64,000 nt of DNA from assembly GCA_963965975.1 (NCBI GenBank), contig OZ014418.1, forward strand, positions 4,104,775-4,168,774. Reading direction: 5' to 3'. Each line of letters begins with the position of its first letter. Within the stretch, counting starts at the first letter, position 1. The stretch comes from Xestospongia bergquistia. Its lineage: Eukaryota > Porifera > Demospongiae > Haplosclerida > Petrosiidae. Both the position numbers and the translations under genes were made by a program. Shown here piece by piece: positions 1 to 54,535 of this stretch. Below the pieces are notes generated by a model. It did no database searches and was not told the origin of the DNA. It saw only the letters and a program-made list of their open reading frames with translations.

Positions 1-779
1 GTCCAGACCTCTCTCAGAATGTTCGAGCATGAACCATCCAACTAGAACATTTTCTCCTCCATAGTCCGAGCGTACATGAGATGGTAATCCATAACACTCA
101 TGATCGACAGCTTGCAGAAATGCATTTAAAAAAGTCACAGCTTATTAAGCAGGTAAGCATGTTACAATCTCCTTAACTAGATCATCTAAATCTTCATTGG
201 TTATGTCACTGAATCAATTATGTTCTATCCAGAACTCCTTTAATCTTCTTTATTTTAATCGTACGTGTAGAGCAAATGATCAGTGCTGCAATCTCAGTTT
301 CTTTAAATCCAATTTTCAACTGAGAATTTAACTTGATCCTCATATATGTCTAAAGGTGGTCAACCACGACACCCAAAGTAATCACCTCCATTTCATAGTC
401 CTGTGTCACAATATATTTGGGGTTGCAACATTATATTGTTGAAAATGAAGAGTTCTATATAGCCTAGTTTCAGCCATGACCTCTTTCACCCAAAGTAATC
501 ACCTTCATTTCATAGTCAGTAGTTAATTGCACAATCAATTGGCAGACTATACCAGTCACAGGAGTGAAGTCCCAGTGATTAGGAACCAGCATTTCTAGGT
601 GTACACATCCTTTCAAATAAATAATCACATCCTTCTTAGCACCTATAGAACTCAAGGGATAGATTCTCTTCATCATCTCTATTCCTTCTTTGAGTATGTC
701 TATGCTCTCAATCCAACCCTCCATCTTCATCAAGTACACACAAACAACACACCTGGAGTTTAAATTGATTATATTCATT
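1..779 (-). pseudogene. Integrase-core transposase, copy 1 (left arm), broken
   Basis: On the minus strand this reads as the N-terminal part of an rve-type (DDE) integrase also found at 24640-26330 and 41401-42560. The start is a short helical segment beginning MEGWIESIDILKEG near 720. After a rearranged stretch comes the helix-turn-helix part (complement of about 180-340), then part of the catalytic core around the second Asp and GGEN (complement of about 20-110). The core between the HTH and GGEN is deleted, and stops and frameshifts are present, so it cannot encode a working protein. The window begins inside it. Family membership rests on similarity to the other copies and on GGEN and HNQRIERLW motifs seen there; the transposon superfamily is not identified. 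Confidence 0.75.
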
Positions 780-839
780 GTGGTATTGTGTAGGTAGAGT
801 GAGTGAAAAGGTACATGTACAGGCTGTTGGATAGAAGGT

Positions 840-1160
840 TGTTGGATTATTAAACTACTTATCTTTGCAATCCTCTAAATAGTCTCCAAAAAGTATGTAT
901 GTTGCCATTTTTTCTATGGCTTGAATTATCAGAATAGCAAACTCAGTTTTGAAACAGAGACTTAATACTCACTATTAGGAATAGAAGAACAAACACATTA
1001 TCACAGACTACATGTACTATTGAATTTTCTATTCAATCAATACCTGGAGACAATTCAGTATGGTTTGATGAAGTAGTTAACAGCTTTCCAGACTATTCAA
1101 GTGAGACTTCATGGCATCTACCATATACTAAGAGTTTGAAGTCCATTCAATAGTTGATCA
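840..1160 (-). pseudogene. HECT E3-ligase fragment, left arm
   Basis: This segment resembles 42860-43190, where the minus strand encodes a piece that looks like the region around a G2E3-type HECT domain (VVDAMKSHPSSLKSL). Here the frame is broken and only short matching stretches remain, for example the complement of 1040-1150. It lies upstream, in minus-strand sense, of the integrase copy, which repeats the HECT-next-to-integrase arrangement seen elsewhere in the window. Assignment is by similarity to the better copy and is only moderately secure. Confidence 0.45.
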
Positions 1161-1194
1161 AGTTCAGCTTTTGATCAAAGTATGTATAGTTTGA

Positions 1195-9912: not shown

Positions 9913-9965
9913 CTGTCACTGTAAACTATAATATTAATTATAATAATAACAATAATAATAATATT

Positions 9966-11140
9966 TGTTGCAGACTTGGCTCTATTGACATGTTGTGGCA
10001 CACAAAGGAGATATTAATGTTGCATATTTCATTGTGTCTTATAGAGGGAAACCCCTAATGGACAAGATAGCAATTGATCAGTTATAAAGAATTGGCCACA
10101 ATTACAACCTGAAGAAGAATTCTTAATGGATCAGCCATAGCAAAGATACAATGCTGTCTTATGCAGTGTGAATTCATGAAATTAGATTGGTAAAACAGAG
10201 AGGCAGATGGACACACCTTTTGCACTAAAAAGATCCATAGTCTTCTGAAGGATAGGGCCTAGTTTGTTATAAAGGGGAGCTGCATTATTTCTGTTATACT
10301 TCCTCTTTCTCCTTGAATGGAGGTTTTTAACCGGAGTTGTTCCCAGCTACAGTCATTGAGTTTGTAGATGTTAATTGGTTGTTAACGAGTTTAATGAGGG
10401 AGCCACAAACTGAATTTAGAAAGAAAATTGTGCTGATGCAAAAGTAGCTCGTTTCTGTAATCCCAGACTTCACAGGTGAGTTGGTAAGGCCAAATGGTCC
10501 CGTTCCAGTTCCACAGGTGGGTTTCTGTCAGATAGAGAGGGAATAAATTTTAATTGTAGTGTTTCTTCCGAAGGTTGAAGGTTTTCTGACAGAAACGTTG
10601 CAAACAATCTGTAATCTGAAAGAAGTATGTCCAATGTGACGATAGTCTGTCAATAAAGGATGCATAAGCAGCATGAAAGTGGGACTTAGCGATGGAGCTC
10701 TTCACACCAAAGAGTGATCTTATTTTCAGCAACTTGTCTTATGAAGTTGTGAGATCCAATAGCACCTCTAAGATATTCAAACCCAACTGAACTTATCTGT
10801 ATCCCAGAACCAGTAAAGACCCTCTTTGCCTCAGAATAGAAGTCAGGTTTTACAAGTAAGTCAGTCTTCTGATTATTTGGAAGTAACCACAGTGTGGGCA
10901 TAGTGTATTTGGCTGATCCCACCACAAATTCAAATTCTGAAGACTACCAGCAGCAGCTAAACCATCAACATACCAGACCTGGTCAACTGATGTGTTTTTC
11001 CTAAGGTGATCAATCAATGGCAATCTGCCTATCCCATTCATGTTCATAGCCAGGGTGTCCCCTCTTGAGATCTAGATGGTATATTGCAACCATTGCCATA
11101 GAACGTGGAGGGGAGATAAAGATAATAATAATAATAATAA
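9966..11140 (-). pseudogene. YADD-type LINE fragment, left arm
   Basis: Minus-strand pieces (10550-11047 is the best part) match the plus-strand copy at 20565-21780. Readable motifs are PLIDHLRKNTSVDQVWY for the catalytic region, GIQISSVGFEYLRGAIGSHN and the thumb region SHFHAAYASF. A Cys pair near the C terminus is followed by a (TAA)n tail at the 9966 side. The first Asp of YADD reads YVDG here, so the active site is mutated. Only the reverse transcriptase palm and thumb and part of the C-terminal region remain; the 5' end is truncated at a TAA tract (about 11112-11140). It is distinct from LINE copies A-C. Confidence 0.8.
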
Positions 11141-11270
11141 TTCATTGTATTTTTGCTTAGTTTGATTTTATTTGCTTATATAAGTCTTTGCTTTTTTGCT
11201 ACTCTTTGGTGTATTAGAGTTGTTTAATTTTGTAAAAACTTGAAGTTTTTTTTACTTATGTAAGTCAAGT

Positions 11271-20564: not shown

Positions 20565-20604
<40 letters not shown>

Positions 20605-21780
20605 TGTTATCTCCTCTCCGCATTCTTTGGCAATGGCTGCGATTTACTATCTCAAGAGGGAACCCCATGGCTGTGGCCATGTATGGGATATGCACATTGC
20701 CATTGATTGATCACTATAGGAAAAACATATTAGTTGACCAGGTTTGGTATGCTGATGATTCAGCCGCCGGTAACAGACTTCAGAATTTGCATTTGTGGTG
20801 GGATCAGCCAAATACACTAGGCCCACACTGTGGTTACTTCCCAATAATCAGAAGACTCACATACTTGTAAAGCCTGACTTCTACTCTGAGGTAAAGAGAG
20901 TCTTTGCTGGTTCTGGAATACAGATCAGCTCAGTTGGGTTTGAATATCTTGGAGGTGGTATTGGATCTCACAACTTCATAAGACAAATTGCTGAAAATAA
21001 GATCAGTCCTTGGTGTGAAGAGCTTAACTCGCTGAGCTCCATCATTAAGTCCCATCCTCATGCTGCTTATGCAGCCTTCACCCACAGAGTAATGTCACAT
21101 TGAACATACTTCTTTCAGATTACAGATTTGTTGGCAACTTTTGTGTCAGAAAACCTCCAACCTTTGGAAGAGATACTACAATTAAAATTTATTCCCTCCC
21201 TACCTGACAGAAACCCACCTGGGGAACTGGAATGGGACCTTTTGGGCTTACCAACTCATCTGTGAAGTTCGGGATTACAGAAACAGCTAATTTTGCATCA
21301 GCATAATTTTCTTCTAAAATTCAATTTGTGGACTCTTCATTAATTTCATTAACAACCAATCAACATTTGCAAACATAATGGACTGCAGCTGGGAACAACT
21401 CCAGATCAAAACCTTCATCGAAGGAGAAAAGAGGAAGTATAACAGTGATAATGCAGCTGCCCTTTATAACAAACTAGGCCCTAACCTTCATAAGGCTATG
21501 GATTTTCTTTAGTGAAAAAGGCGCGCCCATCTGCCTCTCTGTTGTACCAATTGAATTTCATGAATTCACACTACATAAGACACCATTATGTCTTCACTAT
21601 GGCTGGTTCTTTAAGAATTCTTAATTTAAGAATTCGTAATTATGGCCAACTCTTTACAACTGATCATTGCTATCTTGTCCAATGGGGGGTTTCCCTCTAT
21701 AAGACACAATGAAATGTGCAACATTACTGCCCCTTACTTTTGAAGTGTGCCACAACACATCAATAGAGCCAAGTCTGAAA
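20565..21780 (+). pseudogene. YADD-type LINE fragment, right arm
   Basis: It begins at a (TTA)n tract (20567-20602) and reads RGNPMAVAMYGICTLPLI (motif B region), VDQVWYADDSAAGN (motif C, intact Asp pair), then GIQISSVGFEYLGGGIGSHN and SHPHAAYAAFTH. The thumb region and a Cys-containing C-terminal part follow in broken frames (SLPDRNPPGELEWDLLGLP near 21200). It ends in a long (TTA)n tail. It is 5' truncated and frameshifted at about 20845. The family is a LINE type widespread in marine invertebrates, recalled from general knowledge; the endonuclease domain is not retained here. Confidence 0.82.
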
Positions 21781-21783
21781 AAG

Positions 21784-21945
21784 ATATTATTATTATTATT
21801 ATAATTATTATTATTATTGTTGTTGTTACTGTTGTTGTTGTTGTTATTGTTAGTATCATTATTACTTTAATGGCTATTGCTATTATTATTATTATTTTTA
21901 TTACCATTATTATTATTACCATTATTATTATTGTTATAAGTCATT
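21784..21945. repeat. (TTA)n/(TTG)n microsatellite
   Basis: About 160 bases of att, gtt and related triplets form the tail of the YADD LINE. In the left arm the equivalent tract was the landing site of LINE copy A. The Ile/Val-rich frames across it are artefacts. Confidence 0.9.
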
Positions 21946-24349: not shown

Positions 24350-24470
24350 ATACTTTGATCAAAGCTGAACATGATCAAACTGACAACTTCTCCATCACAC
24401 CCTACTGAATTGACTCCAGGTATTGATTGAATAGAAATGTCAATAGTACATGTAATCTGTGGTAATATGT
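24350..24470 (+). pseudogene. HECT E3-ligase fragment, right arm
   Basis: A short stretch with ctactgaattgactccaggt (24402) matches the HECT-region fragment near 43080-43140 and the left-arm scrap at 1040-1150. It is too decayed to read as protein and is called only from nucleotide similarity. Confidence 0.4.
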
Positions 24471-24639
24471 TTGTTCTTCTATTCCTAGTAGTGAGTATTA
24501 AGTCTCTGTTTCAAGTTTGTTATTTTGAGAATTCAAGTCATAGAAAGGAGAAAGAAATGGCAAAGTACATACTTTTTGGTGACTATTAATTTTAGAGGAT
24601 TGCAAAGATAAGTAGTTCAATAATCCAACAACCTTCTAT

Positions 24640-26460
24640 CCAACAGCCTCTACATGAACCTTTTCACTTACTCTACCTACACAATACTACAATGACTATA
24701 ATCAATTTAAGCTTCAGGTGTGTTGTTTGTGTGTACTTGATAAAAATGAAGGGTTGGATATTTACAATGATTTAATCCTACTTCCTCTATTGATAGACAT
24801 AATGAAAAGAATCTATCACTTGAGTTCTATATGTACTAAGATGTGATTATTTATTTGAAAGTATGTGTACACCTAGAAATGCTGGTTCCTAATTGTTGGG
24901 ACTTCACTCCTGTGACTGGTGTACTCCACCAATTGATTGTGCAATTAACTAGTGACTATGAAATGAAGGTGATTACTTTGGGTCCAAGAGGTCATGGCTG
25001 AAAGTAGGATACATAGAACTCTTCATTTTCAGCAATAAAAAGTTGCAACCCAAATGTATTGTGGCACATGACTTAAATAGAGGTGATTACTTCAGGTATG
25101 AGAGGTCATGGTCAACCACCTTTAGACATATGTTAGGATCAAGTTAGATTTCAGTTGAAAATTGGATTTTAAGAAACTGACATTGCAGCACTGATCATTT
25201 GCTCAACACATACAATAGAAAAAGAAGATTAAAGGAGTTTTGGATAGAACGTAATTGATTCAATGACATAACTAATGAAGATTTAGATGACCTATTTAAG
25301 CAGAGAGTAACTTGTTTACCTCCTTGTGGTTTATGATCAGTACAGACACTGCTTAAAGTTAATGGTGTGATATTGGAAAGACAAAAAGTAAAGGAGTCTA
25401 TTCATTGTGTTCACCCCTTGAGACTTGAAACTAGGCTATGTAGAACTCTTCATCATTGGCAATGTAGTGTTGGCATATTGATGGATATCATAAACTTATA
25501 AGGTGGCGATTAGTAACACATGAAGGTATAGATGGATATAGCCAAGTTCCAGTTTACTTAAAAGTAGCCAGTAATAACAAAACTGTGACTGTTTTTAATG
25601 CATTTCAGCAAGCTGTCGAGTGTTATGGATTACCATCTTGTGTGCATTTGGACTGTGGAGGAGAAAATGTTCTAGTTGGACACTTCATGCTTGAGCATTC
25701 CAAAAGTTTTATTGTGGTAGAAGTGTCCACAACCACAGAATAGAACATTTATGGAGAGATCTTTTTCAAGGCTGCATTAGTTTCTATTACTTCCTATTCT
25801 ATTCACTGCAAGAAATGGGTCCAGCTAGTGAAGCTAATATATGTGCCCACCTCCCTCCCTTACAACAAAAATCTATAATAAACCCTGCATAATATTAACT
25901 ACTAGTCATTATTACTATAAATTCTATAACAAACCTTCTTTGTATATTAGTTTGTATGTAGAGTACCAAATGTGCCATTAGTACACAATTTGTTATTGTT
26001 TCTCCAATTCACTACACCCATCAAAGAATTTTAAATGTATAACATAGTATACTATGTGTAAAGTTAGATTAGTCTATTGTTGTGAGGACTATTTAGAAAG
26101 AAATTAAAATATTAGTTATCAGGTCCTTTTATTTGCAAGACTGTGATTATGGGATTGACTGGAGTGGACCAGTGAGTAATGATGATGATAGTAATACTCT
26201 AATTGTGCCTGACCTTCTATCTAATTTCTTAACTGAACATCAAAGAATCTTGTTAACAGAAGAAATTCAACAGTACCCAGACACAACATTTGGTGTAAAA
26301 CACTACATTTTAGCAAGAGCCTTCATATTATAAGTTGTTGTGTTAAGATTGATGGTTCACCACTGTAATAAGAACTTGACAAAGTTGTAAAAGAGTAACA
26401 ATGTTATCAACCGTCAGGTTGATACAAAAGTGATGATATTGATCCCAATTAAGATATCAT
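24640..26460 (+). pseudogene. Integrase-core transposase, copy 2 (right arm)
   Basis: Plus-strand equivalent of copy 1. It shows the N-terminal helix region (from about 24745), the same duplicated segment as copy 1 (25000-25110), the HTH (25140-25240), and the linker to the first catalytic Asp (GYHKL near 25490). The second Asp with GGEN follows near 25650-25680, then HNHRIEHLWRD (25725-25760) with the catalytic Glu. A C-terminal tail, DYGIDWSGPVSNDDDSNTLI, lies at 26133-26333. The segment between about 25830 and 26130 lacks the expected core end. Stops and frameshifts are throughout. The 3' flank 26335-26460 recurs at 44080-44215. Confidence 0.78.
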
Positions 26461-41296: not shown

Positions 41297-41400
41297 AAGA
41301 GCTTTTCAAATTCATTATATTATATATGCGACAATAATCACATCCTTAATTATAACAAAATCTAATGTTAACAGAGAATTAAGAATTCATATCCGTAAAA

Positions 41401-42560
41401 ATGGATGGTTGGATTGAGAGCATAGACAAACTTGAAGAAAGAATAAAGATGATTAAGAGAATCTATCCCTCGAGTTCTATAGAAACTGAAGAGCCTCTTT
41501 TTGAGGGAGCTGACCATTTATTGGGAGCATGTGTACAGCTGCAACTGCTGGTTTGTAATCACCAGGACTTCATTCCTATGACTAGAACAGTCCAACAACT
41601 GATTGTGCAATTAAATAATGACTATGAAATGGATGTGATTACTTCGGGTGTGAGAAGACCTTTAGACATATGCAAGGATCAAGTTAGATTCTTGGTTGAA
41701 AATGGTTTTAAAGAAACTGAGATCACAGCACTGATTGGTTCCTCTACACATACAATTCAAATAAAATTAAAGGAGTTTGGAATTGAATTCAATCGATTCA
41801 GTGACATAACTAATCAAAATTTAGATGACCTAGTTAAGGACATCGTAACACGCTTACCTGCTTGTGGTATACAATCAATACAGACCCTGCTTAAAGTTAA
41901 TGGTGTGATATTGCAAAGAGAAAGAGAGTGAATTCATCATGTAGACAACTTAGGACTTGAAACTAGGCAACATGGAACACTTCAACGTTGACAATATAAC
42001 ATTACAAGCCCAAATACCTTGTGGTACAGTGATGGATATCATAAACTTATAAGGTGGTGATTAGTAATACATGGAGGTATAGATGGATATAGCTGAGTTC
42101 CAGTAGCCTCTAATAACAAAGCTGAGACTGTTTTTAATGCATGTCTTCAAGCTGTCGAGTGTTATGGATTACCATCTCATGTACATTTGGACTACGGAGG
42201 AGAAAATGTTTTAGTTGGATGCTTCATGCTTGAGCATTCTGAGAGAGGAAGTTTTATCTGTGGTAGAAGTGTCCACAATCAAAGAATAGAACGTTTATGG
42301 CGAAATCTTTTTCAAGGCTGCATTAGTTTCTATTACTTTGTATTCTATTCCCTGGAAGTAGTTGGTCTAATAGATCTAGCTAGTGAAGTTGAAGTATGTG
42401 CCCTTCACTTTGTTTATCTACTTATTATACAATGTTGAGTGTACATGTTTTGTGAGGCATGGTGCAATCATCCTCTCTGTACAGCACACAACCGAACACC
42501 ACATCAGCTATGGATTCTTGGAATGGCTCGACCTAAGATAGAAACACCAAATAGCACAGC
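41401..42560 (+). pseudogene. Integrase-core transposase, copy 3 (best preserved)
   Basis: The frame 41401-41931 (176 residues) has an N-terminal helix region (MDGWIESIDKLEERIKM) and an HTH (CKDQVRFLVENGFKETEITA to about 120). It ends at a TGA where the core begins. The core continues in other frames: DGYHKL near 42030 (first Asp), [10 protein letters not shown] in 42187-42438 (second Asp), [15 protein letters not shown] (catalytic Glu), then CNHPLCTAHNRTPHQLWILG at 42470-42530. It lacks the duplicated segment found in copies 1, 2 and 4. It ends near 42560, abutting HECT sequence in the opposite orientation. Confidence 0.83.
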
Positions 42561-42574
42561 AGTACCAGGAGTTA

Positions 42575-43374
42575 CTGGAATTACAGTAAAAAAACTCAGA
42601 ATGTCCTTGAAGGAAACTTTCACATTACTCCCATCTGTAAGTAACGTGAAAGTATATAAACAGTGTATACAAATTCTATAACTAATCATAGTGAATGTAT
42701 ATATAAAGCAACTAATGAATGATATCAAACAAAGCACTAAGACAATGAAGGCTAAAAACTAACTCAATTATGTACTTACTTATAGTGACATCTAAACCAC
42801 AAGGACAACCCCATCATGAGCAAGCATTGACATTATTGGTAATTGAATACAATACAAGATTGTCCTTATTTAGGATTACTGAACTACTTACTTTTGCAAT
42901 CCTCTAAATAGTCACCAAAAAGTATGTAGATTGCCATTTCTTTTTCCTTTCTATAACTTGAATTCTCATAGTAGCAAACTCAGTTTTGATAAAGATACTT
43001 AATAATCACTATTAGGAATAGAAGAACAAACGTATTACCACAGATTACATGTACTATTGACTTTTCTATCCAACCAATTCCTGGAGTCAATTCAGTAGAG
43101 TGTGAAAATGCAGCGAAGAGAGATTTTAGACTACTTGGGTGAGACTTCATGGCATCAACCACACCAAGAGTTTGAAGTTGATTCAATAGTTGATCAAGCT
43201 TGGCTTTTGATTGAAGTATTGTATATAGTACATTGTGACACTATGGACTAAAGTAAAACGATCTTCAAGTGTCAATGTTGTGGGACTCTTGTTGAACCCA
43301 CAGTAGGACAGTGTTTCTATCGCATCCATTGATACGACTTGAATCTGCTCATTGCTGACAGCATCCACCATCTA
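42575..43374 (-). pseudogene. HECT E3-ligase fragment (G2E3-like)
   Basis: On the minus strand an exon begins after an ag at 43375 and reads MVDAVSNEQIQVVSMDAIET, then SKAKLDQLLNQLQTLGVVDAM and KSHPSSLKSLFAAFSHSTEL. These resemble the stretch before and within the HECT N-lobe of G2E3-like ligases (recognised from general knowledge). A further piece near 42580-42650 reads TDGSNVKVSFKDILSFF, the start of the C-lobe as in 51146-51457. The middle of the HECT domain is missing, and intron-like sequence separates the pieces. Confidence 0.65.
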
Positions 43375-43975
43375 AGACAACAATTAACAATCTATTGACA
43401 ACAGAAAAAGTTGTCCCTAACTGCTTATACCTAGGAAATAATAAACCAATTTCAAAGCCACTATTTTAAGTGTTATTGTTATAAACAACACTGAAAGACT
43501 TAACTAAAAAGAACAATTGAAATGCCATTAAAAATAAATCTTGCAGTATATGCTAATTTTGAATGTTTATTTATCACATAGGTCAACTAAAGTTATTAGT
43601 TGTGTGTTTTTTAGGATTGCTAGCTTGTAAATTTAGTAATTTTAATCACCAGAGACTCTTAACTAGATTAAACTACAGCAACAAGATACAAGCATATGGC
43701 TAGTCCTAAGAAGTAAGTGATTAATTTTAAATACATTTGTATATAATAGCTCACCTTAATCTGGGCACAAGAAATTTGTTATAACTCTGGTAGTGTAGAA
43801 GACCAAAGGAGAACATGCATTTTAGCTTCAATACTTAACTCTTACATGAGAGCTCTGACAAAGTACGAGTGAAAACACCACGAATCATCGAGTGTCTAAC
43901 TCTAACATGAGAGTTCAGAAGTAATTTGAGGTCTCAAAAAGCGAGCTAACACAACAAAGATAGAAATATTCTGTG
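43375..43975 (-). repeat. Intron-like repeat, copy 1 of 3
   Basis: About 550 bases matching 51545-52125 and, over about 430 bases, 53280-53712. Markers are aatcaccagagactcttaac and gggcacaagaaatttgttat. It lies just upstream, in minus sense, of the HECT exon and starts at a plausible acceptor, so it is probably an intron of the HECT-bearing gene. Confidence 0.75.
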
Positions 43976-49919: not shown

Positions 49920-50833
49920 CAGAAATAGTACTCAAAATAAACAAACAACTTCTACTCGTACCACTACTTCACTTTACATCTACGGTTTCTTTTACATACA
50001 CTAGAAGTAATCGTCCCTAGCTACATAATCTTTTAGGCCAAGACATCTATCATAATTTATTTACTTAATAGCTCATAACACCTCTCTCTCTCTCTCTCTC
50101 TCTACTGCGATTCATGCATACACTAATAATAATCACTTTTCTTTACATTGACTTCAACATTTTTCTACCTTGCTATATCAACATCATTAGCATGACACAA
50201 AAACTTCCTCTCTCGTATATACATACTACCAGTAAATATCTCACCTTCCTAGTGACATTAAGTGCTTTAACTTCTGTATTATACATTGTTTTTTTCTTAA
50301 TATTACACCTATGTTTATGTTCACACAATAGTAAAAAATAAATTTCTCTAACCTTTCAGTAAACATAACTTCTTTAAGATTTCTTTAGCAAAGTTGCTGA
50401 CATTGTGATATCAATAAGATGATTAAAAATAATCTTGAAAGAATCTAAAAAGCTCACAAACATTTCGCAGCAAAAAAAGTGTGCTCGATCACGTGAGCTA
50501 CGTTAATGGAAGTACACGGAAAATTAAAAGACAATGTTTTTTATAATGATTTTCTAATCCCTGAGGTAATGTGGTTGTAATGTGTGCAACTCAGCAACCA
50601 AGAGTCTGATTTCGATGCGACAAATGCCAAAATACGGAGGAAGGACTACTCTATTCCATAAGTGTAATAACTTGAAATCGTTCATTTGCGCAAAATGACT
50701 GTTTTTTTTTCATATTGAGTCACATATTGAGAAAAGGTAAACAAAATAAAAAATGGGCTTGTCAATAGAGTGTGTTTAATTAGTTACACCCTCTTCCTGT
50801 CTGACCAACTAAAAATAGCTTGCTACGGGCCTG
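49920..50833. other. 3' region of the DUF7869-like transposon
   Basis: Non-coding, with a short (ct)n tract at 50088-50102. Most of it (49936-50740) recurs at 53712-54535. Near its end, tttttttcatattgagtcac is shared by both copies. Confidence 0.7.
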
Positions 50834-50841
50834 AACATTAT

Positions 50842-51150
50842 AGTGCTGACAATAAAGAGTTCTATGTAGCCTAGTTTGAGCATGATCTCTTGGACCTAAA
50901 GTAATCACCATTTCATAGTCAGTAGTTAATTAGACAATCAGTTGGCAACTACAACAGTCACATGAGTGAAGTCCCAGCAATTAGGAACCAGTAGATCTAG
51001 GTGTACACATGCTTTCAAATAAATGGTTAGCTCTCTTATAAGAGCCCCCTCATTGTCCCTATAGAACTCGAGGGTTAGATTCTCTTAATAATCTCTCTTC
51101 CTTCTTCAAGTTTGTCTAGGGTCTCAATCCAACCATCCATCTTTATCAAG
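50842..51150 (-). pseudogene. Integrase copy 4, part a (N terminus)
   Basis: Minus sense from about 51146 gives the MDGWIE-type N-terminal helix region with KLEEG and the RxIYPSSSI stretch, continuing to the duplicated segment where the DUF7869 transposon is inserted. It follows the HECT C-lobe with essentially no gap on the same strand. Confidence 0.72.
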
Positions 51151-51457
51151 AACACAGATAATCCATCTTGAGTTTCAATTGATTAATGTCATTGTAGTAT
51201 TGTGTAGGTAAAGTGAGTGAGAAAGTACATGTAGAGGCTGTTGGATAGACTGCATTATGGTTGAATGACCAAGTTGGATCTATATTAAACCAGAGCGGAG
51301 GAACAGCTGATGAACCAGTAAAAAAACTCAGAATGTCTTTTAAGGAAACTTCATTACTCCCATCTGTAAAGAATGTGTAAAAGTGTATACAAATTTTATA
51401 ATTAATCTTAGTGAATGTATACATAAAGCAACTAATAAATGATATCAAAGAAACCAC
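51146..51457 (-). pseudogene. HECT C-lobe with catalytic cysteine
   Basis: The frame reads TDGSNEVSLKDILSFFTGSS, AVPPLWFNIDPTWSF, then YPTASTCTFSLTLPTQYYND. The motif AVPPLxF followed by PTASTC is the HECT C-lobe pattern, with Cys of STC as the ubiquitin-thioester residue (family knowledge). The end KLKMDYLCS meets the start of integrase copy 4. The preceding N-lobe is absent here; the segment up to 51545 looks intronic. Confidence 0.72.
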
Positions 51458-51544
51458 TAAGACAATGAAGGCTAAAAACTAAATTATGTAATTACTCAGT
51501 GAGATATAAACCACAAGGACAACCCCATCATGAGAAAGGATTGA

Positions 51545-52125
51545 CATCAAGCCAACAATTAACAAGTCTACAAATAGCAGACAGGAAAGCATCCATACTG
51601 TTTATAGGTAAGAAATTATAAACCACTTATAAAGCGACTATTTTGAATGTTATTGTTATAAACATTGACAGACTAAGCTTTGAGAGAAAAAATGAAATGC
51701 CATTAAAACAAAATCTTGTAGTATATGGTAATTCTGCAACTAGTTATGTGTGTTTTTTAGGCTTGATAGCTTGTAAATTTAGTAATTTTAATCACCAGAG
51801 ACTTTTAACTAGATTAAACTACAGGAACAAGATACAAGCATATGGCTAGTCCTAAGATGTAAGTGTATAATTTTAAATACATTTGTATGTAATAGTTTAC
51901 CTTAATCTGGGCACAAGAAATTTGTTATAACTCTGGTACTCTAGAAGACTAAAGGTGAACAGGTATTTCAGCTTCAAACCTTAACACTTACATGAGTGTT
52001 CTGAAAACGTATGAGTGACACGAATGATTGAGTGGCTAACTCTAACACAAGAGTTCAGAAGTATTTTGACGTCTCGATAATAGAGCTAAAACAAAAAATT
52101 GACAGACATATTCTGTTCAGCCAAT
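51545..52125 (-). repeat. Intron-like repeat, copy 2 of 3
   Basis: Matches 43375-43975 along most of its length. It lies between the PARP-like pieces and the HECT C-lobe on the minus strand, as an intron would. Confidence 0.75.
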
Positions 52126-52894
52126 GAAAACAAAAACATAACAAAATTTGATGTCTGTCTGCAGAATAAGTGATAACATATGCCATTAAATTGTTAGAAG
52201 CCATGTAAATGATATAATCTCCACTAAATCCAGTTTTGGAATCGAGGCAAACCTGTTTAAAATTAATATCTGGTAACGACTCCATTGTGGCATTCTTAGT
52301 TAACTATTAGGCACATGCACGCATGTTGAGCCAGTCAGTACATTCGTTATAAACATTTGCCCATGCCCACTTGGTTACCAATTGGCGGAGTATTTTGTCT
52401 CAACTGCAAATTAATTTGCATAACCCCACCAAACACAATGTCAGAATCACATATCAAAACTTTCTTCAGAGTCATAAATTAGTTCCAGAAAAATGTCACT
52501 AATTCCATGGAATAACACTATTTCATTTGCCTCTCCGCCATTTTTCAGTTCAATCATACTTTTATGGTGTATAAATTTCTTCCAATTGGTAGCATTCGTC
52601 ATGGTTAATTTAAATTTATTAATAATATGGGTGTATTCAACCGAGCCATGTACAACCACAAAACGTTCAGTGGTGTTTTTTTGATTTTCCCCAACTGATG
52701 GTTTCTTTGATATGAGTTTTTTCAATATTTTTTCTAGCATTAGTGACATCTTTTTGGGCCCCAAATATTGTTACTGTTGTATCATAATCACATTGATGGT
52801 GCTTTATGACAAAATTGTGACTCTCCTCTAATTTCTTCACACGATCCCACTTCTGTTCTCTCACACCAGCAAAGAACTGAGGACAAGTAATCAC
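52110..52894 (-). pseudogene. PARP (ADP-ribosyltransferase)-like fragment
   Basis: An exon-like block after an acceptor (cctcag at about 52880) reads VREQKWDRVKKLEESHNFVI with a KH-like tail (TVTIFGAQKDVTNARKNIE). After a frame change come RFVVVHGSVEYTHIINKF, KLTMTNA, NWKKF and NEIVLFHGISDI (52447-52700). FHG is the His of the PARP H-Y-E site. A last block after an acceptor (tttaaacag, 52255) reads SGDYIIYMASNNLMAYVITY, like the final strand of the fold. The central part with the catalytic Tyr is missing. It resembles PARP14-type enzymes; a gene remnant is more likely than a working gene. Confidence 0.6.
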
Positions 52895-53279: not shown

Positions 53280-53712
53280 AATGAAAATATGAAGGTGTTA
53301 ATGACAAATTATTTTAAATGTTATTAACAACATTGACTGGCATAACTAATTGAGAAAAAATGAAATGCCATTGAAACTGTAATTCTGCATGTTTATTTAT
53401 TACATACCTCAACAACAAAAGCTATTAGCTATGTTTGTTTAGGCTTGATAATGCATAAATTCAGTAATTTTAGTCACTAGAGACTTTACCTAGATGAACT
53501 ATAGCAAAAAATACAAGCATATCTCTGCTCAGACTAAGTAAGTGATTAATTTTAAGTATATTTGCATATAATAGCTCACCTTAATCTGGGCACAAGAAAT
53601 TTGTTATAACTTTGGTAGAAGACCAAAGGAGAACATGCATGTCAGCTTCAAACCTTAACCCTTACATGAGAGTTCTGAAAACATATGAGTGAAAAACACC
53701 ACGAATCATCGA
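53280..53712 (-). repeat. Intron-like repeat, copy 3 of 3
   Basis: Matches copy 1 up to cacgaatcatcg (53700-53711), where DUF7869-transposon 3' sequence takes over. Confidence 0.72.
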
Positions 53713-54535
53713 AATAAACAAACAACTTCTCGTATGTCTATTTCACTTTACATCTACCGTTTCTTTTACATACACTAGAAGAAATTGTCCCTAGCTACAT
53801 GGTCTTTTAGGCCAAGACATCTATCATACTTTATTTACTTAATAGCTATATCAACATCATTGGCAAAACACAAAAAATTCAACATTCTCTATATCTTTCT
53901 CTACTGTGATTTCATGCATACACTAATGGTAATCACTTTTTTTCTTGCTACATTGACTTAAACTTTTTTCTACCTTGCTATATCAACATCATTGGCATAA
54001 CACAAAAAATTCAACATCTCTCTCTCTCTCTCTCTCTCTCTAGTATATACATACTACCAGTAAACATGTCACCTTCCTAGTGACATTAAGTGCTTTAACT
54101 TCTGTATTACACATTGTTTTTTTCTCTTCTTATTACATCTATGTTTATGTTCAAACTGTATAGTAAACATAATAACATCTTTAGGATTTCTTTAGCAAAG
54201 TTACTGACATTGTCATATCAATAAGATGATTAAAATGATCTTGAAAGACACTAAAAAGCTCACAATCATTTCACAGCAACAAAGTGTGTTTGATCACGTG
54301 AGCTACTTTAAAGGAAGTACATGGAAAATTAATAGGAAATGTTTTTGTGGATTTTCTAATCCCTGAGGTGATGCAGTCGTAATGTGCGTAATTCAGCAAC
54401 CAACAGTCTCATTACAATGCGACAAATGCCAAAATACAGAGAAAGGACTATTCTATTCCACAAGTGTAATAACTTGAAATTGTTCATTTGCACAAAAATG
54501 ACCGGTTTTTTATATTGGGTCACATTTCATAATTA
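53712..54535 (+). repeat. Solo 3' fragment of a DUF7869-type transposon
   Basis: Similar to 49936-50740 along its length: aataaacaaacaacttct, the taggccaagacatctatcat stretch, a (ct)n tract (54019-54041), and gatcacgtgagctac. One internal segment around 53850-54005 is duplicated locally. No coding part is present. Confidence 0.78.

Follow-up and report, generated by a model that had tools for sequence, protein, structure and literature searches.

A dead PARP-HECT-integrase locus in the sponge Xestospongia bergquistia, probably a relic of a repeat family with convergent HECT ligase and integrase genes

The window analysed here is a stretch of 64,000 nucleotides, C8:4104775–4168774 of the 146-Mb, 21-contig genome of X. 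bergquistia, in which C1, C8 and so on denote contigs and L037 and similar names denote comparison loci from the same genome. Between 52.9 and 50.8 kb its minus strand carries, in series, first a PARP fragment, then a dispersed repeat, then a HECT C-lobe and lastly the 5' end of an integrase gene, which is the order given in the original prediction made from this DNA. That the pieces are broken had also been recognised; every one of them is truncated, and the locus is dead. The strength of the matches and a paralogous segment of 90% identity place the series beyond chance. The features of the window are as follows.

427–1190, minus strand: outer-arm relic with a piece of the HECT N-lobe region, a HECT tail and an integrase start in series (DNA alignments)
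24386–25848, plus strand: second relic with a HECT piece, a HECT tail and integrase in series (DNA alignments and Pfam scan)
41299–42584, plus strand: decayed integrase copy with five stops, facing the HECT remains at 42584–43457; PF24764 match of 116.6 bits at 42097–42438
42584–43457, minus strand: remains of a HECT C-lobe and N-lobe, facing the integrase at 41299–42584; 90.7% identical to L037 2885–2010
48393–53270, minus strand: segment duplicated at C11:4155000–4160000, its two main pieces being 88.9 and 90.4% identical
49932–50725, unstranded: left copy of a direct repeat of about 800 bases, 80% identical to 53709–54525
50899–51160, minus strand: 5' fragment of an rva_4 integrase gene, with 78.7–82.9% DNA identity to eight integrase loci
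51146–51478, minus strand: HECT C-lobe open reading frame with the Cys motif, lacking the last 12 or so residues; PF00632 match of 29.9 bits
51160–51161, minus strand: same-strand HECT/integrase junction (DNA alignments), which recurs in related form at no fewer than 40 genomic places
51554–51634, minus strand: part of the HECT gene immediately preceding its N-lobe exon, matching L037 2010–2095
51639–52018, minus strand: dispersed repeat of about 400 bases, with a partner copy at 53310–53692 and another at 43462–43891 (77–78% identity)
51982–52064, minus strand: minisatellite stretch resembling the L064 array of 59-base spacing
52055–52303, minus strand: likely PARP C-terminal piece, from position and DNA homology; no Pfam match
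52447–52770, minus strand: PARP catalytic-domain fragment, a pseudogene piece, from likeness to same-genome open reading frames and PDB sequences; no Pfam match
53709–54525, unstranded: right copy of the direct repeat of about 800 bases, paired with 49932–50725

The PARP-HECT-integrase block is bracketed by the two copies of the direct repeat. The sequence predicted to be an intron-like repeat is indeed repetitive, and can be identified as the dispersed repeat of about 400 bases together with the 59-base minisatellite.

The predicted HECT C-lobe is an open frame of 110 aa on the minus strand. Its PF00632 score is above the cut-off of 23.9 bits and the match covers positions 199–294 of the 306 in the profile; the HECT of L037 scores 40.2 bits against the same cut-off. 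The window C-lobe carries PTASTCTFSLTLPT, and the same stretch in L037 aligns with PTAHTCFNQLCLPT of 'Apoptosis-resistant E3 ubiquitin protein ligase 1' from the PDB. The Cys of this stretch is presumably the catalytic Cys. At the DNA level, 51547–51162 is 89.7% identical to the L037 HECT exon. The N-lobe exon is missing here, the DNA jumping from the equivalent of L037 position 2095 to that of 2641. The exon upstream of the C-lobe, read as the N-lobe, is conserved among copies, and in the Pfam scan of the upstream HECT exons there was no match at the cut-off. Judging from its separate open frames, the HECT gene of the element would have several exons. There are 28 matches to the exon-3 domain in the genome, 24 of which are at least 69% identical, and each of these 24 has a further HECT or integrase match of the repeat family no more than about 2.3 kb away. 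Away from the family the upstream HECT domain has only weak matches (30–33%), at C10:4229411 and C8:4194944.

The integrase fragment of the block (260 bases) is the start of the gene, ahead of the rva_4 core, and the PF24764 match in the window lies elsewhere, at 42097–42438. An open integrase copy on C11 matches PF24764 with 256.7 bits (cut-off 26 bits), and an HTH-like stretch of the integrase is sub-threshold at 17.2 bits, the cut-off being 24.6. The HECT match stops at 51161/51162 and the integrase match starts at 51160 or just below, and the two therefore abut as predicted. Likewise, the three other places in the window at which HECT sequence had been proposed to adjoin the integrase (844–1190, 24386–24626 and 42584–43457) match the HECT region of L037.

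The same-strand junction is not particular to the window. Its position and a short, recognisable linker are common to nine aligned copies, with the L064 copy cut by the end of its stretch, and the linker has diverged in the versions in the window and at C11:4155k. All of the 40 places scored, out of 106 candidates, span the junction. Thirteen same-strand copies were read, these being the left-arm or single copies in L026, L028, L033, L039, L041, L043, L045, L047, L049, L052 and L053 and two in the window, and in all 13 the integrase that follows the junction is interrupted by stops. There are 0–7 stops in the first aligned integrase stretch, and those copies with none or one in that stretch (L047, L043 and L045) have 3–7 in the next. 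The only same-strand place among the 39 strongest integrase matches, C10:3761874, has an open frame of 243 aa and one stop in the match. The order in series had been proposed as the form of the element. The better-kept copies are convergent and the same-strand copies read all bear stops; HECT followed by integrase was dropped as the working arrangement. The junction is most likely one old rearrangement that has spread with the repeat.

Profile searches of the genome gave 146 matches to PF24764 and 106 to PF00632, and the HECT piece of the window gave 111. Pairing was counted between the 39 best of these 146 matches to the integrase and 47 HECT C-lobe places, which are made up of 45 of the 111 window-HECT matches and two PF00632 matches that had earlier been spotted beside integrases; the 66 matches that cover only the tail or another short stretch were left out. 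At 24 of the 39 integrases there is a convergent HECT C-lobe on the opposite strand, no more than 3 kb downstream. One has a same-strand HECT upstream and 14 have no listed HECT within 3 kb. Without the two added HECT places the convergent count is 22 of 39. If the places were independent, 0.079 of the 39 would be expected to have any HECT within 3 kb, as against 24 observed to be convergent, with the reservation that the 39 are not independent, many being duplicates.

A secondary adjacency would leave intact integrases standing without HECT, which is not the pattern seen. Eleven integrases have open frames of at least 340 aa, and nine of these are convergent with HECT, the C-lobe match being 1.04–1.11 kb from the match to the integrase core. 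A tenth, C10:3621458, is faced by an N-lobe exon of HECT (C10:3620317–3620640), and for the remaining one, C9:7320542, no HECT is listed nearby. Two of the eleven, C10:3854790 and C9:7320542, have one stop each inside the match. Measured between the ends of the reading frames, HECT and integrase are 0.96 kb apart in L037 and 0.91 kb apart in L041. Divergent copies on C12, C3 and C5, whose HECT identity to the piece in the window is 37, 44 and 44%, are also convergent and have the same spacing of 1.11 kb; of these, the C3 and C5 copies may be related by duplication.

Many adjacent HECT and integrase sequences would also be found if an integrase element that favours host HECT genes had inserted into them repeatedly. 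Independent insertions would hardly produce one orientation and one spacing, however, and none of the 146 integrase matches lies near the three strongest HECT matches in the genome (C6:194060, C15:4884914 and C3:4747382). The upstream HECT domain is, in addition, found beside the repeat family, bar the weak 30–33% matches. Repeated targeting of HECT genes is therefore highly improbable.

The integrase is clearly under coding constraint, judging from substitution patterns. The dN/dS values are 0.31, 0.41 and 0.34, with upper limits of 0.47, 0.63 and 0.66, so that all three comparisons are below 1. The HECT ligase is likely to be constrained as well. For six pairs of HECT exons, dN/dS is 0.38, 0.56, 0.23, 0.71, 0.22 and 0.24; the intervals of four are below 1 and those of the remaining pairs extend to 1.00 and 1.63. 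L033, an array copy bearing stops, takes part in three of the four significant comparisons. Among 16 stop-bearing integrase controls dN/dS is 0.53–0.99, with the upper limit below 1 in four, as is expected where one of the compared sequences is kept.

The copies at C11:5446–5459k, C4:1411–1424k, C4:3648–3662k and C9:6709–6724k are copies of one unit, about 97% identical, with inverted arms. The main arm segments of these four palindromes are 2.1–4.9 kb long and 98.1–99.9% identical within a copy, and C4:1411k has further outer arm segments at 96.4–97.2%. For a 1.7-kb arm block, identity is 99.59–99.94% between the arms of a copy and 98.1–99.0% between copies. This higher identity within copies indicates that the arms have been homogenised or newly copied at each locus. 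HECT 5' exons are present on both arms, with exon 3 at C11:5449228 on the plus strand and C11:5455023 on the minus strand, and likewise in the other three palindromes. In the copy at C8:4087k the arms are from two families, 89.3% identical to each other and 96.2–96.8% identical to their nearest others. In a palindrome at C10:3768–3784k the arms measure 3.9 kb (99.8% identity) and 1.7 kb (97.6%). One of the four palindromes, C4:3648k, has its inner segment flipped relative to the shared flank, which is consistent with an inversion arising from recombination between the arms.

These structures could be those of a transposon whose inverted arms each bear the first HECT exons, and presumably a promoter, with one arm reading into the ligase and the other facing the integrase. 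The arms would be kept identical by conversion, the centre would flip, and the ligase would regulate transposition or host defence. This more elaborate reading is considered rather unlikely.

The limits of the palindromes were considered as element ends (C4b, C10a and C8) and rejected, for these limits are not the same and the copies remain homologous beyond them. The outer limits of the long inverted arms vary among the copies examined. The outer flank was also rejected as an element end, as it is retroelement-like sequence behind a simple repeat. This sequence flanks four palindromic copies on one side and C10:3373k on both, its exact joining point being visible only in C9 and at C4:3662k. 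It is present in the window at 9924–11141 and 20585–21824, and has 14 full-length copies of at least 93% identity in the genome, among 40 matches listed. Comparison of the integrase 5' side with the HECT 5' side for short inverted repeats gave low-scoring matches only, and termini, target-site duplications and an empty site of the HECT/integrase repeat were not found in the DNA examined. The repeat is presumed to be mobile.

HECT/integrase relics of close similarity also recur every 115–200 kb or so in series on six contigs, at C5:4.62–5.12, C6:3.42–4.16, C7:4.67–5.24, C11:3.47–3.74, C14:2.74–3.20 and C15:2.55–3.16 Mb. It is as if these series were embedded in very large repeat arrays, perhaps linked to centromeres.

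Copies of the HECT/integrase repeat share flanks, including the retroelement-like sequence, and segmental duplication therefore explains part of their spread. It might explain all of it, if the HECT/integrase pair were an old neighbourhood multiplied by duplication of repeat-rich regions, with no mobile element of its own. The 14 retroelement-like flanks speak for this, as do the duplicate of the window block on C11 (88.9–90.4% identity, extending to both ends of the C11 stretch compared) and the array-like series on C5, C6, C7, C11, C14 and C15. Passive duplication does not readily account for the persistence of convergence and spacing down to 37–44% HECT identity on C3, C5 and C12, nor for the constraint on the integrase in three of three pairs and on the HECT in four of six. 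It is therefore held to be the less likely explanation, if one of appreciable weight.

The PARP fragment at 52447–52770 has no PF00644 match in the Pfam scan. All of the 24 PDB sequences listed for it at E≤1 are PARPs or tankyrases, the best match being weak (E 0.024), and it is 52–60% identical to eight open reading frames of 370–1205 aa in the same genome. One such relative at C1:197k (56% identical; 693 aa scanned) has Macro, WWE (three stretches) and PARP domains. These macro-WWE-PARP proteins, which we take to be PARP14-like, differ from the fragment in the window, which is a broken catalytic piece only. PARP matches also lie in long uninterrupted open reading frames, the longest of about 1200 aa, at C7:5.39–6.58 Mb and at C1:197k. 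The Pfam scan of 52055–52303 gave no match; this stretch is likely to be the PARP C-terminal piece, judging from the DNA block that contains it (52852–51982), which is about 80% identical to PARP loci on C10.

There are five places where PARP lies upstream of HECT on the same strand: the window, C11:4155k, C10:3758k, C1:17172k and C10:3767790. The last is the final one of several tandem units and lies a short way ahead of the HECT exons in the palindrome at C10:3768k. Tandem PARP fragments separated by the 400-base repeat and the 59-base minisatellite are found at C10:3757–3768 kb (L063–L065). Five other copies of the 400-base repeat end at the equivalent of 51639–51641. The join between this repeat and HECT is spanned fully only in the window and at C11:4156507, and partly at C8:4148143, where there is no PARP, and at C10:3760205. 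C1:17171577 goes 14 bases beyond the join, with a HECT match overlapping that end; as only the first 176 of 321 query bases are matched, the join at C1 is shortened or different.

An element encoding PARP, HECT and integrase in series was what the original prediction proposed. The three are ordered on one strand not only in the window but also at C10:3758928–3762356 and C1:17172357–17170447, C11:4155k has PARP, HECT and a scrap of integrase, and at C10:3768k a PARP is found just upstream of a fuller HECT copy. These places probably reduce to one or two events. The window and C11:4155k are one duplicated segment, C10:3758k spans the same repeat/HECT join at 80–86% identity, and the join at C1 is the shortened or different one. 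Stops interrupt the PARP matches at C10:3758k, C1 and C11, and the one in the window is truncated. In addition, none of the PARP matches (lists of 43 and 26) falls inside the better-kept copies at C11:5446k, C4:1411k, C4:3648k and C9:6709k. PARP was judged unlikely to be part of the element, given its absence from these four copies and an adjacency that duplication explains, and a three-gene element is improbable. Of the proposed mobile element with ubiquitin-ligase and ADP-ribosylation modules, the unit of HECT and integrase is supported and the PARP is weakly supported at best. Most likely, the fragment is a decayed macro-WWE-PARP piece that came to lie beside HECT once or twice and was then duplicated. 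Decayed PARP pieces of at least 60% identity, except C7:5651497, share regions with HECT/integrase relics (C10:3.75, C8:2.93, C8:4.16–4.18, C11:4.15 and C1:17.17 Mb), so that a looser link between PARP and the repeat is at best weakly suggested.

The dead and rearranged locus is probably left over from a repeat family, most likely of DNA transposons, whose better-kept form has two convergent genes, one for a DDE integrase or transposase with an rva_4 core and one for the HECT ligase, with 3' ends about 0.9 kb apart. In such a transposon the integrase would cut and insert the element. The ligase, encoded on the opposite strand, would ubiquitinate either the integrase or host factors of chromatin or repair, and this would favour or limit transposition. 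The repeat could also be a source of stray multi-copy HECT genes.

Relatives were not confirmed in the viral contigs and prokaryote genomes searched, the reach of this search being short since the four rows of the query alignment are 87–99% alike. Literature searches, covering titles and the openings of abstracts among the papers listed, turned up no paper describing HECT with such an integrase, and none of the matches listed in a search for IS3EU or HECT had both words. Thus the convergent pairing of HECT and integrase in one repeat family was not turned up in these searches; published analogues do exist, and a DNA transposon with an accessory ligase is favoured in light of two of them, Ginger1 and the TET-carrying IS3EU elements.

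Two solved HECT ligases of the PDB, apoptosis-resistant E3 ligase 1 and E3C, have an alignable C-lobe with the same TC...LxLP stretch. The HECT described here differs from them in being multi-copy, in its position beside an integrase and in having upstream exons with no Pfam match. IS3EU and GingerRoot elements are, as the repeat family probably is too, DNA transposons of eukaryotes whose DDE transposase is related to integrases (PMC10045372, PMC12730594); the word HECT does not occur in these two papers. They have 6-base target duplications and TA..TA ends, neither of which was found in the DNA examined here. The TET-carrying IS3EU elements of fungi are described as having a second gene, for an alpha-kinase, opposite to the transposase (PMC12730594), an arrangement comparable to that of the HECT gene in this family. 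Ginger1 is similar in that an integrase-type transposase is associated with a ubiquitin-pathway enzyme. In the Ginger report, OTU or Ulp1 domains are described on Ginger1 transposases, and a role for the ubiquitin pathway in transposition was proposed (PMC2836005). If the ligase is truly a conserved partner, its activity would be opposite to that of the Ginger ubiquitin and SUMO proteases. This would make the idea of ubiquitin in transposition testable, and it raises the question of whether an element-borne E3 ligase controls its own integrase or a host factor. The two systems also differ in layout: the protease domain of Ginger1 is at the C-terminus of the transposase (PMC2836005), whereas the ligase of the sponge repeat family is on a separate, convergent gene.
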